From Oscillospiraceae bacterium (GTDB lineage: Bacteria > Bacillota > Clostridia > Oscillospirales > Ruminococcaceae): a DNA stretch of 51,306 bases. The stretch is from the NCBI GenBank assembly GCA_022766785.1, contig JALEOL010000047.1, positions 1 to 51,306 of the forward strand, read 5' to 3'. A program made the translations under genes and the position numbers. The notes under the pieces were generated by a model. That model made no database searches. It was not told the DNA's origin and was given only the letters and a program-made list of their open reading frames with translations. Below are positions 11,656 to 27,882 of this stretch, piece by piece (position 1 is the first letter of the stretch; each line of letters begins with the position of its first letter).

Positions 11656-12606
11656 ATGGAATTTCCGGCGGAACTTCGCGGTGAAATAGAGCGTATGCTG
11701 TCAGACGAGAGCACAAAGGCGCTGGCGGCGGCTGCGGAGGGTCTATCCAAGCGCTACCGCGGCAACGACGGCAGCGGAAAGCGGCTGGCGGTCTCCCGGC
11801 GCGATATCCTGGCGTATGCGGCGGTGAGAATGCCGGCGACCTTCGGGGCGGTGGGCAGAGCGCTGGAGCTTTCGCTGGAATGCCTGCCGGAGGAGCGGCG
11901 CGCGTTCCGGTCTGTGCTCGATATCGGCGCCGGCACCGGGGCGGCTTCACATGCGGCGGCAGCGGCGGCGGAGTGCGGAGAGTTCACCTGCATAGAGCGC
12001 GAGCCGGAGATGATAAGCCTCGGCAGCCACCTGACGGAATTCTGCGGCGTGCCTGCGGTATGGAAGCAGGGGGATATCACCGGGGGATTTGACGGGAAAG
12101 CGGAGCTTGTACTGTGCTCCTATTGCCTGAACGAGCTAGCGGCAGGCGACCGCAGAGCACTGGTGAAGCGCCTGTGGGAGAGCACGGAGCGGCTGCTGGT
12201 CATTGTGGAGCCGGGCACTCCCGAGGGGTATTCCCGTATAATTTCGGCACGGGAGCAGCTGACGGAGCTTGGCGCGCACATAGCCGCCCCCTGTCCGGGG
12301 AATACGGCATGTCCTATCGCAGAGAACGACTGGTGTCATTTCACGGTGAGAGTTCCGCGCAGCAGGCTGCACAAGCAGTTAAAAGGCGGCGACGTCCCGT
12401 ATGAGGATGAGAAATTCTGCTTTATCGCAGTCTCCGGGGAGCAGACCAGCCCCTGCGAGGCAAGAATACTCCGCCACCCCCGGGTGGACAGCGGACGTAT
12501 CACGCTGGAGCTGTGCACTCAAAGCGGCAGGGAGCAGCTTATGGTCACGAAGAAAGATACGCGGTTCAAGGCGGCGAGAAAGTCCGGTGCCGGGGACGCA
12601 TTCTGA
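11656..12606 (+). CDS. Rsm22-like ribosome-associated methyltransferase
   Basis: A 316-residue SAM-dependent methyltransferase of the Rsm22 (mitochondrial small-subunit assembly) family. The SAM site is VLDIGAGTGAASHAA near residue 90, the acidic loop is FTCIEREPEM, and motif IV-like residues are ELVLCSYCLNEL. The C-terminal part has the Rsm22 cysteine signature (APCPGNTACPI, then NDWCHFTVRVPRS), where relatives bind an iron-sulfur cluster or zinc. Relatives help assemble the small ribosomal subunit; a direct methylation target is not shown. GAGAGG lies before the ATG. It is the second gene of the transcript that starts at the structured leader near 10.65 kb. Confidence 0.85.
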   Translation: MEFPAELRGEIERMLSDESTKALAAAAEGLSKRYRGNDGSGKRLAVSRRDILAYAAVRMPATFGAVGRALELSLECLPEERRAFRSVLDIGAGTGAASHAAAAAAECGEFTCIEREPEMISLGSHLTEFCGVPAVWKQGDITGGFDGKAELVLCSYCLNELAAGDRRALVKRLWESTERLLVIVEPGTPEGYSRIISAREQLTELGAHIAAPCPGNTACPIAENDWCHFTVRVPRSRLHKQLKGGDVPYEDEKFCFIAVSGEQTSPCEARILRHPRVDSGRITLELCTQSGREQLMVTKKDTRFKAARKSGAGDAF

Positions 12607-14800: not shown

Positions 14801-16174
14801 TCACCCAGTCCTCTGCGTGCCAAAGCGGATAAAGTTGTACTCCTTTGACACCGCGTCCCAGGTCGGGGCGCCGACTACCCCCGTGACCGGAAGCCCGAAA
14901 AGCTCCTGGAATATTCTTACCGCCTCCTCTGTCTGGGTGCCGTAATAGCCGGTCGCCGGAACTTCCGGGATATTGCGGTATGTCCTGCCGATGAGGTTCA
15001 GGTAGGTCTGGAACGCCAGCACATCGTTGTTTTTAAGCCCCGGGGTCAGGACATAGCCCGGGTACAGCGCGGCGGTGTTCCCGGCGTATCCCTCGGGCAA
15101 GCCTCTGAGTATATCGTTATAGATATTCTGTATCGCTGTCCAGGTGGCGAAATCCACCACGGAGTCCGGGTTCAGACCGTAGAAGCGCTCGAACGCCAGC
15201 ACCTGCTGCTCCGTTTCGCTGCCGAATACCCCGTTCGCAGGGCCTGAGGGCACCTCCGGGTTGAAGTAGGCTATCACGTTGAGAAAGTATTGCAGATAGC
15301 TTACGAATATGCCGTAATCCCCCGGGCGGAGTTCGTCGGGGAAATCCTCCTGCACCTCGGACGGGCTGAGACCCTCGGAGGTAAGCTCCGCGAGATTTTT
15401 CACCGCCACATAGATGTATTTTATCTGGTACCACGTTTCCTTGTTGACTACCCCTGTCTGCGGTATCCCGAACACCCCCTGGAACACCCTGACGGCTTCG
15501 GCGGTGTTCTCCCGGTAAAAGCCGTTCGCCGGGGATATCTTTGGTATCGCAGGGTAGTTGTCGGCGATGCGGTTCAGCTCCACCTGAATGGTGCGTACCT
15601 CGTTGCCGGAGCTGCCTATGCCGAACGGCGTGCCGGGGTAGCTTCCGATATACGGCGCGACCGGGGCGTTGCGCACGATGTCGATATCGCTGCCGAAATA
15701 GTATTGCAGCATCTCATACGGGGTATAGCCGCGGTTCGCAAGATCCACCGTCCCCCACTGGGACAGCCCCTGGCAGGTAACAGACGTGCCGTTGCAGAAC
15801 TGCGTGAACAGCGGCTCGACTGTGCCGCGTCTTACGACATAGTTGTTGAATATCTCGTCAACGATGTTGCTGATATTGCCGAAAACGTCCCTGCCGAACA
15901 CGAACGCCTGGTCGTACTGCGTGGAGCTGGTGATGTCAAAGGGAAATCCGCGGCTGCGGTACCATTCAGTATATACCCGGTTGAGCGCGAATGTCACCTG
16001 GGCGTAGATGTTCGCGCGGATCGCCGCTTCCGGCCAGGTGGGATATATCTCGCTGCTCGCCACGTTTTTTATGTAGTCCGGAAAGGACAGCGTGACGTTA
16101 TCCGCCGGGGAATTCGGCGGCCCCAGGTGCACGGTTATCGTTTCCGGGACTGTTGGAGTTCTGATTTCAGGCAT
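14801..16174 (-). CDS. SpoIID-like protein with three peptidoglycan-binding repeats (SleC-like)
   Basis: A 457-residue protein with no signal peptide. Residues about 45-175 resemble a SpoIID/LytB domain: AAIRANIYAQVTFALNRVY matches its helix, and GLSQWGTVDLANRGYTPYE matches the conserved SQxG-A-G-Y motif followed by LQYYFG. After it come three PG_binding_1 repeats (about 190-260, 285-355 and 375-450), each with the motif xNGxxxxxTExAVxxFQ and an ending like TGVVxxxTW. This order recalls clostridial cortex-lytic SleC-type proteins, so a role on spore or cell-wall glycan is possible. GGAGGT precedes the ATG. It overlaps the upstream gene by 8 bp and is surely co-translated with it. Confidence 0.8.
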   Translation of the reverse strand: MPEIRTPTVPETITVHLGPPNSPADNVTLSFPDYIKNVASSEIYPTWPEAAIRANIYAQVTFALNRVYTEWYRSRGFPFDITSSTQYDQAFVFGRDVFGNISNIVDEIFNNYVVRRGTVEPLFTQFCNGTSVTCQGLSQWGTVDLANRGYTPYEMLQYYFGSDIDIVRNAPVAPYIGSYPGTPFGIGSSGNEVRTIQVELNRIADNYPAIPKISPANGFYRENTAEAVRVFQGVFGIPQTGVVNKETWYQIKYIYVAVKNLAELTSEGLSPSEVQEDFPDELRPGDYGIFVSYLQYFLNVIAYFNPEVPSGPANGVFGSETEQQVLAFERFYGLNPDSVVDFATWTAIQNIYNDILRGLPEGYAGNTAALYPGYVLTPGLKNNDVLAFQTYLNLIGRTYRNIPEVPATGYYGTQTEEAVRIFQELFGLPVTGVVGAPTWDAVSKEYNFIRFGTQRTG

Positions 16175-17392: not shown

Positions 17393-17421
17393 TTGACAAT
17401 TCCGCCTGAATGGTATATAAT
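17393..17421 (+). promoter_or_regulatory. Promoter of the cobalamin-riboswitch operon
   Basis: TTGACA (17393-17398), 17-bp spacer, TATAAT (17416-17421): full consensus, just upstream of the aptamer. Confidence 0.9.
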
Positions 17422-17427
17422 ATATGA

Positions 17428-17632
17428 GGCTTGCAGCATGCGGCAATGGCGGTATACCGCCGGAATCCGGTGAAAAACCGGAGCAGTCCCCGCTGCCGTA
17501 AGGGAGCTGCGCGTTCGTCGAATGCCGCTTAGGACAAGGGCGGATGTCACTGGGGAGCGATCCCGGGGAAGGCAGGCGGCGCGTGGGAGAGCATTATCGC
17601 TTTCCGGATCCCGAGCCGGAAGACCTGCCCAC
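17428..17632 (+). ncRNA. Adenosylcobalamin riboswitch
   Basis: The hallmark segments are present in order: GGTGAAAAACCGG followed by AGCAGTCCCCGCTGCCGTAA (the first about 17469), ATGTCACTGGG, CCGGGGAAGGC, and the B12 box AGCCGGAAGACCTGCC (17614-17629). The RNA would bind cobalamin and lower expression of the two genes behind it. The segment 17634-17681 can form a GCGCA/TGCGC stem followed by ATTTTATC near the ribosome site, a possible expression platform. The 485-bp gap before the ATG is filled by this promoter and leader. Confidence 0.95.
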
Positions 17633-17705
17633 AGCGCAAGCTAATTTTGCGGCTATACGGCATTCCGCCGGGCGGCTGCGCAGATTTTATCGGAGGAATA
17701 AAAGA

Positions 17706-18578
17706 ATGAGAACAAGAAACATCGTGTCTGCCATTGCGGCAGCAGCCGTCGCTTTCAGCGCGGTATCGTTCAGCGCTTTCGCTGAGGATCAGCCGGAGGG
17801 CTACATCTATTTCATGGCTGATAAGACAACTATCGGTCAGGGATTTACCGTAACTCCCCGGAAAGTAGCTTTCTATGAGGGTGAAACAGGGCTTGATGTA
17901 GTAAAGAGAGCCGCTGACGTGCTCACCGAGGATTCCGGCTACGGCGCATACATCACCGCTTTCGCAGACGAGGATCTCGAGACAGAGATTCCCGACGAGA
18001 TAAAGGCAGTTGTACCCGAGATGACCGGCAGAAATACCGAGGGCTATCTCAGCGCCATGGACTACACCGCAGAGAGTGGCTGGTCGTACTTCGTGAATGA
18101 CGAATATGCACAGGTGGGCATTGGAGACTATATCCCGGCTGACGGAGACGTTGTATGCTTCTCCTTTACCGTATACGGCTACGGCGCCGATCTTGGCATA
18201 GACAATTCCTCCTGGGGCGGCGCTGCGGCGCTGGTGCCCGGCGTGAAAAAGGCTGAGCTTATAAAGCTCTGCGCCGAGGCTGACGGGACGGACGTTGATG
18301 AGAATATTTTCACCTGGGGAATGGAGATGCTGGCTGAATACGGCGTTACCCAGGAGGAGATCGACAACGCTGTGAACGGTCTTTCAGGCGCTATGGAAAG
18401 CACTGCGGAGTCTGTTTCCACCGCCGATACTGCTGAAGCTCCGGCAGAGGACACCGCTGACGCAGCTGTTGACGAGACAGAGAAAGGCTCTCCTTCCACC
18501 GGCGTGGAGGGCGCTGCCGTTGCTTTTGCGGTGGTGCTTCTGGCAGGTGCAGGCATCGCGCTGAGCAAGAAGAAGTAA
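17706..18578 (+). CDS. Secreted transcobalamin-C-like (DUF4430) protein with possible sortase tail
   Basis: A 290-residue exported protein. The signal peptide is about residues 1-26 (ends SAFA). Residues about 28-160 form a DUF4430/transcobalamin-like C-terminal domain: a strand-rich fold with GLDVVKRAADVL, GYGAYITAF and the signature SGWSYFVNDEYAQVGIGDY followed by DGDVVCFSFTVYG. A helical linker and an Ala/Glu/Thr-rich stretch follow. The tail GSPSTG at about 261-266, a hydrophobic segment and KKK at the very end look like a variant LPxTG wall anchor. Control by a B12 riboswitch and the domain type both point to corrinoid capture at the cell surface. GGAGG lies 9 nt before the ATG. The binding role is inferred, not shown. 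Confidence 0.88.
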   Translation: MRTRNIVSAIAAAAVAFSAVSFSAFAEDQPEGYIYFMADKTTIGQGFTVTPRKVAFYEGETGLDVVKRAADVLTEDSGYGAYITAFADEDLETEIPDEIKAVVPEMTGRNTEGYLSAMDYTAESGWSYFVNDEYAQVGIGDYIPADGDVVCFSFTVYGYGADLGIDNSSWGGAAALVPGVKKAELIKLCAEADGTDVDENIFTWGMEMLAEYGVTQEEIDNAVNGLSGAMESTAESVSTADTAEAPAEDTADAAVDETEKGSPSTGVEGAAVAFAVVLLAGAGIALSKKK

Positions 18579-18581
18579 TAT

Positions 18582-20267
18582 ATGAAGCGAATATCAGGGT
18601 TATTACTGGCGGTCTGCACTGCTCTGTTCATGGCGGTGCAGACCGCTTTTTCCGCACCGGTCCGGACAGACTGGGAAAGCCTTGCGGAGGAATGCTTCGG
18701 CTATTTCACGCAGCAGCGCGGCGCTGAGGAGTTCTGGGACGGGCTGGAGCCGGGGGCTGCGGACTGGGCGGCGTACTGCCGGGCAAGGCTCTATGGCGGC
18801 AGCGGAGCGGAGGATTATGCCGATTTGCTTGAGCGCCATGTGGAGGAGCTTGCCGCCGGTGGGGGCTTTGTAAGACCCACGGAATACCAGAGGGCTGCGA
18901 TATGCATAAGCGCGGCAGGGGGCGACCCGTCTATGGCGGCGGAGCTTGGCGCATACGGCTGTGAGACGCTGGACAGGCAGGGGTTTAACGCCTATATCTG
19001 GGCGCTTATCGCGGTGAATGTTACGGGAGCGCAGCCGCCGCAGCACCCGGTCAATACTGCGGAGTCGCTGGCGGAGCATATAATATCGCTGCAGCACGCG
19101 GACGGCAGCTTCTCACTCATGGGGGAGGGCGGCGATGTGGATATAACATCTGCGGCGGTCTACGCCCTGTCCGGTACTGATATCCCCACAGCTGTTGAAG
19201 CGGCTCAGCGCGGCGCGGACTGGCTGTGCGGACTTGAGAGCTATTCCTCCATGGGAGTGCGAAACTGCGAGAGCACGGCGCAGGCGGTCATTGCGCTTTG
19301 CGCCGCCGGACGTAACGACAAGGCTCAGCAGGCGGCGGTTCAGCTGGAGGAATATCACCGCCGGGGTGGCTACGCTCATCTCCCGGACGGCGGCATAAAT
19401 CAGCTTGCAACGACCCAGGCTCTGGAGGCGTTCACCGCCCTGGCACTCGCACAGCGCGGCGAGAGTCTGTTTGCGGCACCCGGGGAAGCGGCCGGGAGTA
19501 CGCAGGAAATCAGCGGAGATACTCAAAATTCGCAGGAAAGCGGTGGAGATAGCACCGATGTTATGACAGAAAACGCCGCTGAAACAGAACAGTCCGCCGG
19601 AATAATCCACCCTGAAAGCGCCGCGGCAAACGGCGGAAAGCTGACCGGAACGCATATCAAAATAATACTCTCGGCGATCATGGGCGTGGCTGCGGCGGTG
19701 TGCCTTGTGCTGTTTTTTGTGCGGAGGAAAAAGGCGCTGCTCCCGGCTGCCATACTTCTGGCGGCGGTCTGCGGCGGCGTGTGGCTGCTGGATATCCGCA
19801 CCCCGGAGGAATACTACAGCCAGTCGAACGGGGGAACGCTTCATGTCACGGTTTCGGCGGACTGCTCTGCGGCGCTCTCACACATGGACAGCATTGCGGA
19901 GGACGTAAATCCCACGGAGGTGATACCGCAGGACGGAGTGGTTATTGCGGCGTGCGAAGTATCGCTGCCGGAGGGGGCTTCGGCATTTGACGCGCTCAAC
20001 GCCGCCGCCCGGGAGCAGAGGGTCAGGGTGGACTACTCGGGAAGCGCTTACGGAGCGTATATCCGCAGTATCGGCTATATCTGCGAATTCGGCTTCGGCG
20101 AGACCAGCGGCTGGATGTACAGGGTCAACGGGGAATTCCCGGAGGTGTCCGCTTCGGGATACCGTCTCAGCGAGGGCGATGTCGTGGAATTCGTCTATAC
20201 CTGCGACCTTGGAAGGGACGTCGGCGATGTTTTTTATTCACGGAACACCACTGATACTGCCCGGTGA
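18582..20267 (+). CDS. Membrane-tethered intrinsic-factor-like protein: toroid plus transcobalamin-C domain
   Basis: A 561-residue exported protein. Signal peptide 1-25. Residues about 30-293 form a helical repeat domain of the alpha6/alpha6 toroid kind, with the terpenoid-cyclase-like motif LQHADGSF followed by DITSAAVYALSG, and later NCESTAQAVIALCAAG and LATTQALEAFTALALA. Animal transcobalamin and intrinsic factor use the same fold as their alpha domain. After a Ser/Thr/Glu linker come two transmembrane segments (about 359-380 and 385-404) with RRKK between them. Residues about 415-545 are a DUF4430/transcobalamin-C domain (SGWMYRVNGEFPEVSASGY, then GDVVEFVYT). Both soluble domains should face outside. 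The gene starts 3 bp after the previous stop under the same riboswitch. Cobalamin binding is inferred. Confidence 0.85.
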   Translation: MKRISGLLLAVCTALFMAVQTAFSAPVRTDWESLAEECFGYFTQQRGAEEFWDGLEPGAADWAAYCRARLYGGSGAEDYADLLERHVEELAAGGGFVRPTEYQRAAICISAAGGDPSMAAELGAYGCETLDRQGFNAYIWALIAVNVTGAQPPQHPVNTAESLAEHIISLQHADGSFSLMGEGGDVDITSAAVYALSGTDIPTAVEAAQRGADWLCGLESYSSMGVRNCESTAQAVIALCAAGRNDKAQQAAVQLEEYHRRGGYAHLPDGGINQLATTQALEAFTALALAQRGESLFAAPGEAAGSTQEISGDTQNSQESGGDSTDVMTENAAETEQSAGIIHPESAAANGGKLTGTHIKIILSAIMGVAAAVCLVLFFVRRKKALLPAAILLAAVCGGVWLLDIRTPEEYYSQSNGGTLHVTVSADCSAALSHMDSIAEDVNPTEVIPQDGVVIAACEVSLPEGASAFDALNAAAREQRVRVDYSGSAYGAYIRSIGYICEFGFGETSGWMYRVNGEFPEVSASGYRLSEGDVVEFVYTCDLGRDVGDVFYSRNTTDTAR

Positions 20268-20386: not shown

Positions 20387-20462
20387 TTAAATGGACTATA
20401 CAGCATGGGGCAGTGCGCCGGGGAATTTGCGGCTGATCCGTGCAGCAGGGAGGAATCACTTA

Positions 20463-22004
20463 ATGATATTAGACGCACTACACACCTACAGGGCGCAGAA
20501 TACCAGCCGTATGAACAAGTCCCTCGGCATTGGTATGGCTGCCTTTGCTGTGATAGAAGCGGTAGTTACCTTTTTCCTGGTAATGAAGCCGCTGTTTATC
20601 AATCCTGTTTACAGACAGGCGGCGGAGTATAACGCAGCCGGAAAGCCCTGCATCGTAAAGCTTTTCGGCAAGACCTTCGCTTCACAGGCAGAGATCGCAG
20701 ACAACCAGATAATCCTCACACTGTGGGATACGATAGTTAATATCGCGCTTATCTACATAGTTATCACGGGCATTCTTCTGGTGCTTTCGTTCTGCTATTT
20801 CAAGGGCTTTGCGTTTGCAAAATCCTACCTTATCGCGATATTCGGCGCAAAGGCTGTTATCGGTCTTGTTCCGCTGCTTATCCCGTTTGCGAACCTCGCG
20901 GGCAGAAACTCTATCAAGGTATTCGGCGTTATTGACGCGGTGCTCTGCCTTGTGGCGTGCGTTTACTTCGTATATGAGAGCAGCGACGAGTACGCCGATG
21001 ATATGCTGCTTAACGAGGACGAGCGTTCCTCGATGCTGAAGCGCGCTATTACAGGCGGCATCTCGTTCCTCGGCATGGCAGCCACAGTTGTCTTCACGAA
21101 CTTTGCGCTTTCCGCTTACGGCAGCATCACGCTCCAGGGCGGCAACTGGTCGATCATCACCGGCTGGGTAGGCGGCAACAACAACACCGGCATTGCACAG
21201 GGTATCGTTCTGGTGCTCCTGATTGCGGTGGCTCTTGTGGGCAGTATCCTCTATGTGCGCGAGGGCGAGTGGGCAATGATCTACTACTTCGCATTCGGCG
21301 CTGCTACTGCTGTAACTGACCTCGTGGCTATCGTGCTGAGATTTGTATGGGTGCTCAAGACCTACAAGCCCACAAAGGCGCTTGCACTTGCCGGCGACGA
21401 GAACGCGATCGCATGGCTCTCCGGAAACGGCATGACCTCCAGGTGGTGGATGGCTACGGTGTTCCTGATACTTGCCTGCGTATTCGCGGCTGCTGTTGCG
21501 CTGTTTGCTTTCACAAAGATCAAGAGCAAGCTTTCCATTAAGATGAACACCGGCGACAAGAAGCCGTTCATCGCGCTTTCTATCGGCGCAGGCTCGATCC
21601 TGCTGAGCTTTGTTGTCACCATGGTGGCTGTGCTGATGTATGACAAGCTGATCTTCGTTAATCTGCAGTTCGGCGCTATGGACTATCTGTACATCATCGT
21701 GTACGGCGGTCTCACGCTCATGCTGGCTGTTGCGATGTGGTGCGGCTACAGCTTCTCCAAGATGGGTGCTGTTGCGCTGTTCGTTCTGGTGGCTTCCAAC
21801 AACTTCTCCTCTATCTTCACGGTGTTCGGCATGAGGGCTTCCAAGGTGGCAGAGATGAAGAACCAGGGCGTAAGCTTCATGGGCTACAACTACATCATTT
21901 CCGCTGTAATGTACATACTCTCCATTGTGATCTGCCTTGGCATAATTGCTGTGTTCGTTGTCAAGGAAGTCAAGGATTACATGTACCAGAAGCGCTTCTC
22001 GTGA
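20463..22004 (+). CDS. Polytopic membrane protein of unknown function
   Basis: A 513-residue integral membrane protein with about ten to twelve hydrophobic segments spread along the chain, and a short polar loop near residue 180 (SSDEYADDMLLNEDERSS). I recognise no transporter or enzyme family. GGGAGG lies 8 nt before the ATG at 20463; the frame is open further upstream but without a ribosome site. It has its own promoter and a strong terminator, so it is a single-gene transcript and need not belong to the cobalamin locus in front of it, although physical closeness leaves that open. Confidence 0.85.
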   Translation: MILDALHTYRAQNTSRMNKSLGIGMAAFAVIEAVVTFFLVMKPLFINPVYRQAAEYNAAGKPCIVKLFGKTFASQAEIADNQIILTLWDTIVNIALIYIVITGILLVLSFCYFKGFAFAKSYLIAIFGAKAVIGLVPLLIPFANLAGRNSIKVFGVIDAVLCLVACVYFVYESSDEYADDMLLNEDERSSMLKRAITGGISFLGMAATVVFTNFALSAYGSITLQGGNWSIITGWVGGNNNTGIAQGIVLVLLIAVALVGSILYVREGEWAMIYYFAFGAATAVTDLVAIVLRFVWVLKTYKPTKALALAGDENAIAWLSGNGMTSRWWMATVFLILACVFAAAVALFAFTKIKSKLSIKMNTGDKKPFIALSIGAGSILLSFVVTMVAVLMYDKLIFVNLQFGAMDYLYIIVYGGLTLMLAVAMWCGYSFSKMGAVALFVLVASNNFSSIFTVFGMRASKVAEMKNQGVSFMGYNYIISAVMYILSIVICLGIIAVFVVKEVKDYMYQKRFS

Positions 22005-26467: not shown

Positions 26468-27637
26468 TCAGATAGCCGCTTTGAGCTCCTCGACCTTGTC
26501 TGTGCGCTCCCATGCCACGCCGAGATCCTCTCTGCCCATGTGACCGTAAGCCGCAAGCTGTCTGTACTGTGGCTTGCGAAGCTCCAGGGTCTCGATTATC
26601 GCAGCCGGGCGGAAGTCGAACACCTTTGCAACCGCTGCGGAAATAACGTCGTCAGCGACCTTTCCGGTGCCGAATGTATCCACGAAAATGGATACCGGGC
26701 GCGCAACGCCGATAGCATACGCCACCTGTATCTCAGCCTTTTCAGCAAGACCGGCAGCAACTACGTTCTTTGCCGCATAGCGTGCCATGTATGCCGCGGA
26801 ACGGTCAACCTTTGTGGGATCCTTTCCGGAGAACGCGCCGCCGCCGTGACGGGAATAGCCGCCGTAGGTGTCAACGATGATCTTTCTGCCGGTGAGTCCG
26901 CTGTCACCCATAGGACCGCCCACAACGAAACGTCCGGTGGGATTGATGTAGTACTTTGTGTCGTTGTCGAGAAGCTCAGCCGGGATAGTGGGCTTGATGA
27001 CCTTTTCGATTATGTCGGCGCGGATCTGCTCCAGCGCCGCGGAAGCCATGTGCTGAGAGGATACCACAACGGTGTCCACCCTGGAGGGCTTTCCGTCAAC
27101 GTATTCAACGGTTACCTGGGTCTTTCCGTCGGGGAGAAGATAGGGGATAGTGCCGTCCTTGCGTACTGCGGTGAGCTTCTTCGCCAGCTTGTGCGCAAGG
27201 CTTATCGGCATCGGCATAAGCTCCGGAGTTTCGGTGCAGGCATAACCGAACATCATGCCCTGGTCGCCGGCGCCGGTGTCCCCGGCGTTCTGCTCACGTC
27301 CCTCGAGAGCGTTGTTCACGCCCATTGCGATATCCGGGGACTGCTTGTCGATAGTGGTGAACACAGCACAGCTGTTTGCGTCAAAGCCGAATTCCGAGCT
27401 GGTGTAGCCTATTTCCCGGACGGTATTGCGCACAATAGACGGGATATCGATCTGCGCTGTGGTGGAGATCTCGCCCATTACCGTTACCATACCGGTGGTG
27501 GTGAGGGTCTCGCAGGCAACTCTGCCCATGGGATCCTGTTCAAGAATAGCGTCCAGAACCGCGTCGGAGATATTGTCGCATATCTTGTCGGGGTGCCCCT
27601 CGGTAACGCTTTCGGAGGTAAAAAGATATTTGCTCAT
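26468..27637 (-). CDS. metK: S-adenosylmethionine synthetase
   Basis: This enzyme makes S-adenosylmethionine from ATP and methionine in the cytoplasm. The 389-residue protein has full family length and motifs: [20 protein letters not shown] at the N terminus, ATP-site loop [12 protein letters not shown], and the phosphate loop [19 protein letters not shown]. Acidic and lysine residues of the active site (His14 of GHPDK, Asp16) are intact. AAAGGA lies before the ATG. A SAM-I riboswitch and terminator precede it, so the product represses its own synthesis. It also supplies the cofactor for the four radical SAM or methyltransferase proteins seen elsewhere in the window. Confidence 0.98.
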
Positions 27638-27708: not shown

Positions 27709-27726
27709 CCGAAATTCGTATCACTC

Positions 27727-27865
27727 CTCATCTTTCGGCAGTATCACCGCCGCAGGAAGTAGCACCTTTTCCCTCCGCCGTGTATCCACGGGCATCGACA
27801 GGAGAGGTTGCCGGGCTTCATAGGGACCAGTCCCCCGCATTACGCCAGAAGCCGCTCTTGATAAG
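27727..27865 (-). ncRNA. SAM-I (S-box) riboswitch of metK
   Basis: The minus strand reads CTTATCAAGAGCGG, then GAAGCCCGGCAACCT, GGTGCTACTTCCTGC and AAGATGAG: the conserved S-box segments in order. P1 pairs CTTATC with GATGAG. High SAM would favour the terminator at 27680-27708. The third segment has ACTT where AATT is common. Confidence 0.95.
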
Positions 27866-27882
27866 GTTTTTTGTCGATATTC

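Follow-up and report, generated by a model that had tools for sequence, protein, structure and literature searches.

A cobalamin riboswitch locus of an Oscillospiraceae bacterium encoding two predicted transcobalamin-like surface proteins

Introduction

Extracellular capture of vitamin B12 by Gram-positive gut bacteria is, to our knowledge, poorly known. Among gut bacteria, Bacteroides are said to capture the vitamin with surface lipoproteins. The closest described proteins are transcobalamin-like SLBB proteins from bacteria, presented by Burroughs et al. 2007 (PMC1796856); the part of that paper used here describes bacterial fusions of a toroid to an SLBB domain, extracellular paralogs encoded in pairs, anchors of the Gram-positive kind and operons with CbiO/CbiQ, and proposes B12 scavenging and a transfer to animals. 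The word "riboswitch" is absent from its main text. Here we describe a locus at about 17.4-20.3 kb of the window, that is, the whole analysed stretch of 51,306 nt of contig JALEOL010000047.1 (GCA_022766785.1) from an Oscillospiraceae bacterium, in which a cobalamin riboswitch is followed by the genes of two exported proteins, P1 and P2.

Because Burroughs et al. 2007 (PMC1796856) gave the general idea, the locus is a variant of a kind already proposed, and it shares with their proteins, as described in that part, the toroid and the transcobalamin C-terminal domain, the pairs within one operon, the anchors and the predicted B12 scavenging. What is new here relative to that part is the riboswitch control, counted across genomes, a predicted structure with its fold match, a hairpin in mid-chain, the link to a CbrT-type S-component of an energy-coupling factor (ECF) transporter, and a clade detached from the ECF genes. 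Neither an experimental study of such proteins nor a follow-up of the 2007 ancestor proposal was found in the open-licence literature, preprints excluded.

P2 resembles animal transcobalamin, intrinsic factor and haptocorrin in the order of its domains, a toroid and then a beta-grasp domain, and in its predicted fold, but it has a hairpin in the linker, gave no match to them in the sequence searches made and is not soluble, and its corrinoid binding is predicted. With the Bacteroides proteins the pair would have surface B12 capture in common, a likeness by description only, and differs from them in that those are lipoproteins. The S-components of two related operons match only the ECF-CbrT of Lactobacillus delbrueckii (6FNP, PMC5997447) in the PDB; the part of that paper used here mentions no extracellular capture protein.

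Riboswitch and genes of the locus

The features of the locus were as follows.

17393-17421, + strand: putative sigma-70-like promoter, read by eye (TTGACA at 17393-17398, 17-base spacer, TATAAT at 17416-17421)
17462-17624, + strand: cobalamin riboswitch aptamer RF00174 (57.8 bits, E 7.9e-12)
17706-18578, + strand: P1, exported DUF4430 (transcobalamin beta-domain-like) protein of 290 aa with an NPXTG-type wall anchor
17799-18170, + strand: P1 beta-grasp domain, residues 32-155 (secondary structure of the AlphaFold model and Foldseek)
18489-18575, + strand: P1 SPSTG sorting signal and C-terminal helix, residues 262-290 (NF033846)
18582-20267, + strand: P2, exported protein of 561 aa with toroid, membrane hairpin and DUF4430 domain
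18672-19454, + strand: P2 alpha/alpha toroid, residues 31-291 (model pLDDT, the predicted local distance difference test, mostly >90; family-profile match 1.4e-21)
19647-19781, + strand: P2 two-helix membrane hairpin with a short positive loop, residues 356-400 (hydropathy and AlphaFold model)
19824-20204, + strand: P2 DUF4430/beta-grasp domain, residues 415-541 (Pfam and AlphaFold model)

The riboswitch is followed directly by the P1/P2 genes, and the preliminary description, which had placed a strong B12 riboswitch ahead of two genes, was confirmed in this observation. The aptamer scored 57.8 bits with the RF00174 covariance model (cut-off 31.5), with model positions 47-167 of 189 aligned and the ends (1-46 and 168-189) unmatched. 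No clear expression platform stood out when the leader RNA was folded (z -1.48; 10 of 100 shuffles did equally well). P2 starts 3 bases past the end of P1. The genome of the bacterium (2.48 Mb) is 85.75% complete, a limit carried by all genome-wide negatives below; the riboswitch before P1 was the single cobalamin riboswitch found in it, and P1 and P2 gave its only DUF4430 matches.

Predicted structure of P2

P2 consists of a hydrophobic N-terminus, the toroid, the hairpin and a DUF4430 domain (PF14478) scoring 60.4 bits against a cut-off of 23.8; the signal peptides of P2 and P1 were both called from hydropathy alone. For P2 alone the toroid family match was not significant. PF00432 was matched at E<=0.1 in 28 of 38 P2 homologs, and the sequence profiles of the P2 family matched squalene and drimenyl cyclases in the PDB, reaching a squalene-cyclase-type chain at 7.5e-19. 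The AlphaFold model, built from 38 aligned sequences, had a mean pLDDT of 85.7 and a predicted template modelling score (pTM) of 0.69, with the toroid helices at residues 31-291, the hairpin at 356-400 and the beta-grasp domain at 420-540. All 15 matches of this model in the PDB at E<=0.001 by Foldseek were transcobalamin, intrinsic factor or haptocorrin (E 2.7e-7 to 5.4e-5, over 546-578 alignment columns), so that the toroid earlier proposed for the second protein was recovered, with the animal carriers ranked first, and the succession of toroid and beta domain that characterizes their family was found in the predicted fold of P2. The beta domain matched 5no0 (TMt 0.71) and 3u7z (TMt 0.74-0.75), and in the model its helix 468-478 is followed by strands 483-488 and 491-497.

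Single-sequence PDB search with P2 did not reach transcobalamin. PF01122, which we take to be the profile of the eukaryotic transcobalamin/intrinsic factor/haptocorrin family, was absent among the families of P2 at E<=1 and among the 25 families listed, of 31, for the 38 homologs. The polar residues D185, D187, T189, S231, Q234 and H266 are invariant in the P2 alignment. In the AlphaFold model they lie where every second toroid helix begins or in the loop leading into one; they could mark a spot for a possible ligand.

Membrane hairpin of P2

Hydropathy placed two hydrophobic helices of P2 at about residues 359-381 and 384-405, and two such helices lay between the toroid and the beta domain in all 38 single-chain homologs. 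The loop between them was short, with a net charge of +3 to +6 across these homologs, and by the positive-inside rule such a loop should put both domains outside the cell, so the two-helix hairpin, with both domains predicted to face outward as first described, held throughout the 38 chains.

Nine pairs in which the toroid and the DUF4430 domain are split between two proteins were chosen by hand. A hydrophobic N-terminal stretch, either an anchor or a signal peptide, was present in all nine DUF4430 partners, and six of the nine toroid partners had a hydrophobic C-terminal stretch (loci L070, L077, L078, L081, L094 and L129; L and G numbers denote loci and genomes), which was absent from the other three (L088, L091 and L126). 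From the sequences, the single chain looks like an end-to-end join of a toroid protein ending in a helix and a DUF4430 protein starting with one.

P1 as a wall-anchored protein

The open reading frame of P1 as listed starts at 17544, within the riboswitch; the start was put at 17706, a position that agrees with a GGAGG at 17692 and gives a hydrophobic N-terminus. P1 is then ordered as a hydrophobic N-terminus, the DUF4430 domain, a helical spacer and an NPXTG-type sorting signal. The DUF4430 match (PF14478) scored 42.1 bits against the cut-off of 23.8 and was partial (profile positions 34-71 of 72), which bore out the earlier assignment of this domain to both proteins and, with the P2 match, places the pair in the DUF4430/transcobalamin-like SLBB clade. 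The possible SPSTG wall anchor noted before also stood, with NF033846 (Rumino_NPXTG) at 28 bits against a cut-off of 23.5, and the C-terminus carries the sorting motif, hydrophobic helix and KKK tail of a sortase-anchored wall protein. The AlphaFold model had a mean pLDDT of 68.4, and all six of its PDB matches at E<=0.001 were transcobalamin. The top match was 5no0, the isolated apo beta domain of transcobalamin, and 5np4, the same isolated domain with cyanocobalamin, ranked fourth (TMt 0.73-0.74 for the two). Helix 62-69 is followed in the model by strands 72-76 and 81-87. As with P2, single-sequence PDB search did not reach transcobalamin.

Riboswitch linkage across genomes

Linkage was counted in 61 genomes (60 relatives and the bacterium's own), with riboswitches scored under stricter filters; the statistics here and below, over genomes and loci, ignore kinship. 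DUF4430 lay within 12 kb downstream on the same strand for 27 of 46 cobalamin riboswitches, for which the rough chance expectation was <1%, and 41 of 79 DUF4430 matches (a set that includes two scoring under the family cut-off) were so placed behind a cobalamin riboswitch. Among relatives from named genomes, 80 of 91 were taken in (L055-L134), and the upstream DNA of 64 of these loci (L063-L126) was scanned with Rfam; the loci outside that scan were L055-L062, the window's clade, which was counted via the 61-genome set, and L127-L134. A riboswitch of the cobalamin class was present upstream of 31 of the 64 distant loci (28 RF00174, one AdoCbl at L069, and two AdoCbl-II at L066 and L125). In addition, AdoCbl-II preceded the P2-like operon of G057 (38.7 bits, cut-off 36.5), and an AdoCbl match in G039 was sub-threshold only (29 of 50 bits). 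That riboswitches of different families precede the same genes speaks for a functional link and not just for common descent.

Of 15 genomes with a P1-P2 pair, 10 had a riboswitch in front of it. In G028 and G035 a contig edge is close to the start of the pair, and a riboswitch is found close to the edge of a different contig, so that the two may be linked there.

ECF transporter linkage and the detached clade

Neighbouring genes were counted at 72 distant loci (L063-L134), with their identities taken from BLAST comparison with a small set of seeds. P2-like genes directly precede EcfT in the related operons: EcfT followed the P2-like gene in 61 of the 72 loci, 51 loci had an S-component and 67 had at least one of T and S, and the co-occurrence with cobalamin ECF genes that had been proposed as a check was thus found. 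The five loci without T or S were L072 and L091, with room remaining on the contig, and L086, L087 and L126, where the contig ends. Pfam assigned the seed T to CbiQ and the G057 S to the ECF components. The S-component of G057, from a P2-like operon, and that of G031, from an operon of riboswitch, small DUF4430 protein and S, each had 6FNP_A of ECF-CbrT as the sole PDB match at E<=1.

No ECF genes adjoin nine of the P1-P2 chains (the window and L055-L062, of which L059 and L060 are on short contigs), and these nine formed one clade (support 0.957), sister with support 1.0 to L064 of a Ruminiclostridium metagenome-assembled genome, in which riboswitch, P1, P2, T and A are consecutive. Since the tree was midpoint-rooted, one separation of the clade from the ECF genes is the simplest reading.

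In the bacterium's own genome the matches to EcfT and to a CbrT-like S fall outside the window. The S-component, on contig 47, is 48% identical to the S of G057, the CbrT-matching protein with which it was compared in place of 6FNP itself, and a single CbiQ-family T lies beside an ATP-binding cassette ATPase on contig 53. BtuFCD was rejected as the importer, because a search of the genome, 85.75% complete, gave no permease of the FecCD (BtuC) type. The preliminary description had stated that no BtuFCD or ECF importer is adjacent and had supposed that a distant transporter is fed; the former agrees with these results, and for the latter the S on contig 47 with the T and ATPase on contig 53 is a plausible candidate. 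One PF02310 B12-binding match was found, a 789-aa protein read by eye as MetH.

An S-component at E<1e-30 was present in 13 of the 15 pair genomes, always on a contig other than that of the pair, with an identity of at least 62% in 12 of them and 40% in G021. At E<=0.001 an S match was present in 24 of the 28 genomes that have P2-like matches, partial ones included, vs 7 of 33 without (p=5e-7); at 1e-30, a cut-off picked after viewing the list, none of the 33 had one. CobS was found in 1 of the 28 and 12 of the 33 (p=0.0018).

Several other layouts were observed. A second, smaller one (L034-L036 and L038-L042) consists of a riboswitch, a small DUF4430 protein of about 130-200 aa and a CbrT-like S-component. 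At L046 and L047 (G007 and G033, same genus) a cobalamin riboswitch precedes genes for giant proteins (1,000-1,400 aa, P2-like matches), a split DUF4430 protein, EcfT and EcfA. At L070, counted among the loci lacking an upstream riboswitch, a cobalamin riboswitch lies at 12058-12200, downstream of the P2-like ECF operon. A DUF4430 protein at L053:7672-9345, inside an ECF operon, has a dockerin domain, a hint that some of these binders may attach to a scaffold of the cellulosome type. Directly 3' of the CbrT-like S on the bacterium's own contig 47 (L138:4418-5308) is the gene of a protein with three near-identical repeats, named by eye as ComEA-like helix-hairpin repeats.

Neighbouring genes in the window

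20391-22004, + strand: 537-aa membrane protein of no assigned family, possibly linked to the pair (gene co-occurrence across genomes)

This protein was present in all 15 P1-P2 pair genomes and in 1 of 46 others, adjoined the pair in 8 of the 15, and had no Pfam or NCBIfam match at E<=1. It is possibly a transporter candidate, and it may be only a clade marker. On the - strand, the protein at 14801-16174 has three peptidoglycan-binding repeats and a sub-threshold SpoIID match, and by eye a protein that shares its start or its end is encoded close to the locus in both G004 (L049) and G015 (L050). An S-adenosylmethionine riboswitch at 27725-27867 (-) is upstream of a gene read by eye as metK (26468-27637).

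Discussion

The riboswitch, the domains, the predicted folds, the hairpin, the gene linkage in relatives and the presence of an S-component and an ECF module were all obtained by computation, and our results supported the reading of the locus as a B12 surface clamp pair with a distant transporter. P1 and P2 probably capture a corrinoid and feed a CbrT-type ECF importer. We infer the corrinoid ligand, the closure of the clamp, the handover to CbrT and the direction of regulation. P1 and P2 would be the surface corrinoid-capture proteins of a B12-scavenging bacterium, and at low intracellular adenosylcobalamin the riboswitch would permit their synthesis. P1, fixed to the wall by sortase, would act as an outer binder with its lone transcobalamin-type beta domain. 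P2 would be held in the membrane by its hairpin, with the loop inside and the toroid and beta domain outside, closing over the corrinoid in the manner of transcobalamin, and would hand it over to the CbrT-like ECF S-component encoded on another contig. Import by this S would be powered by the shared ECF module, and the imported corrinoid would be used by the MetH-like methionine synthase.

The wall anchor of P1 and the loss of adjoining ECF genes in the window's clade would also fit proteins that hold a corrinoid at the surface for storage or for denial to competitors, with no delivery to an importer. This is improbable, as the related loci are mostly ECF operons with EcfT next to the P2-like gene and a CbrT-like S is kept in most of the pair genomes. 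We consider equally improbable a non-corrinoid ligand, for instance cobalt or some other cofactor, whose demand tracks B12 status. In its favour, 3u7z, a fold match of both P1 and P2, is titled "putative metal binding protein", and a referee of the 2007 paper, in the part used here (PMC1796856), cautioned on wider ligands; both linked S-components searched match only the B12 S-component CbrT in the PDB, and the order of the two domains is that of transcobalamin. That P2 serves the ECF complex chiefly as a structural or regulatory subunit, with no substrate binding of its own, as its membrane hairpin and the position of P2-like genes directly before EcfT might suggest, is very improbable in view of the invariant polar residues near the toroid helix starts, a possible ligand site. 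A terpene-cyclase-type enzyme that makes or alters a terpenoid, to which the cyclase matches of the profiles point, was rejected as scarcely credible, since DxDD, the catalytic motif of class II terpene cyclases, is absent from all 38 homologs (which have I, V or M at its fourth position) and Foldseek ranked prenyltransferases and squalene cyclases (E ~1e-3) below the transcobalamin kin.

Several results weigh against corrinoid capture by a transcobalamin-like clamp pair. Superposition of P2 across both domains was poor for the top 15 matches (root-mean-square deviation 13-19 Å, TM score 0.26-0.36 by query length), and the model is therefore two halves rather than a closed clamp; of the proposed likeness to transcobalamin, both halves were recovered and the domain arrangement was unlike the closed clamp. 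The sequence profiles of the P2 family, including that of the beta domain, never reached transcobalamin. Of the 64 distant loci scanned, 33 had no upstream riboswitch, 10 of these with <1 kb of upstream DNA, so that on whether homologs occur mainly without B12 riboswitches, the question raised beforehand, the loci were split almost evenly. The three closest relatives, G004, G012 and G015, keep the pair with no riboswitch detectable even under permissive filters, and alignment of their leaders with that of the window revealed none in them. The pair of G012 may serve a B12 producer because that genome has CobS and two riboswitches elsewhere. Two of the pair genomes, G020 and G026, gave no S-component match.

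Isd is the haem relay of staphylococci. A B12 counterpart of it in the Gram-positive envelope is a tentative reading of P1-P2, one we hold to be possible but not probable, in a line that would show the bacterial form behind animal transcobalamin and intrinsic factor. In such a relay the wall-anchored beta domain of P1 would pass a corrinoid inward to the P2 clamp, which would load the CbrT S encoded elsewhere. The proteins are compact, their fold is predicted, and the locus offers a riboswitch, a candidate transporter and a presumed single loss of linkage, so that binding, handover and where the animal carriers came from can be put to a direct test. If the relay is true, its lineage would show the form from which the animal carriers were taken.

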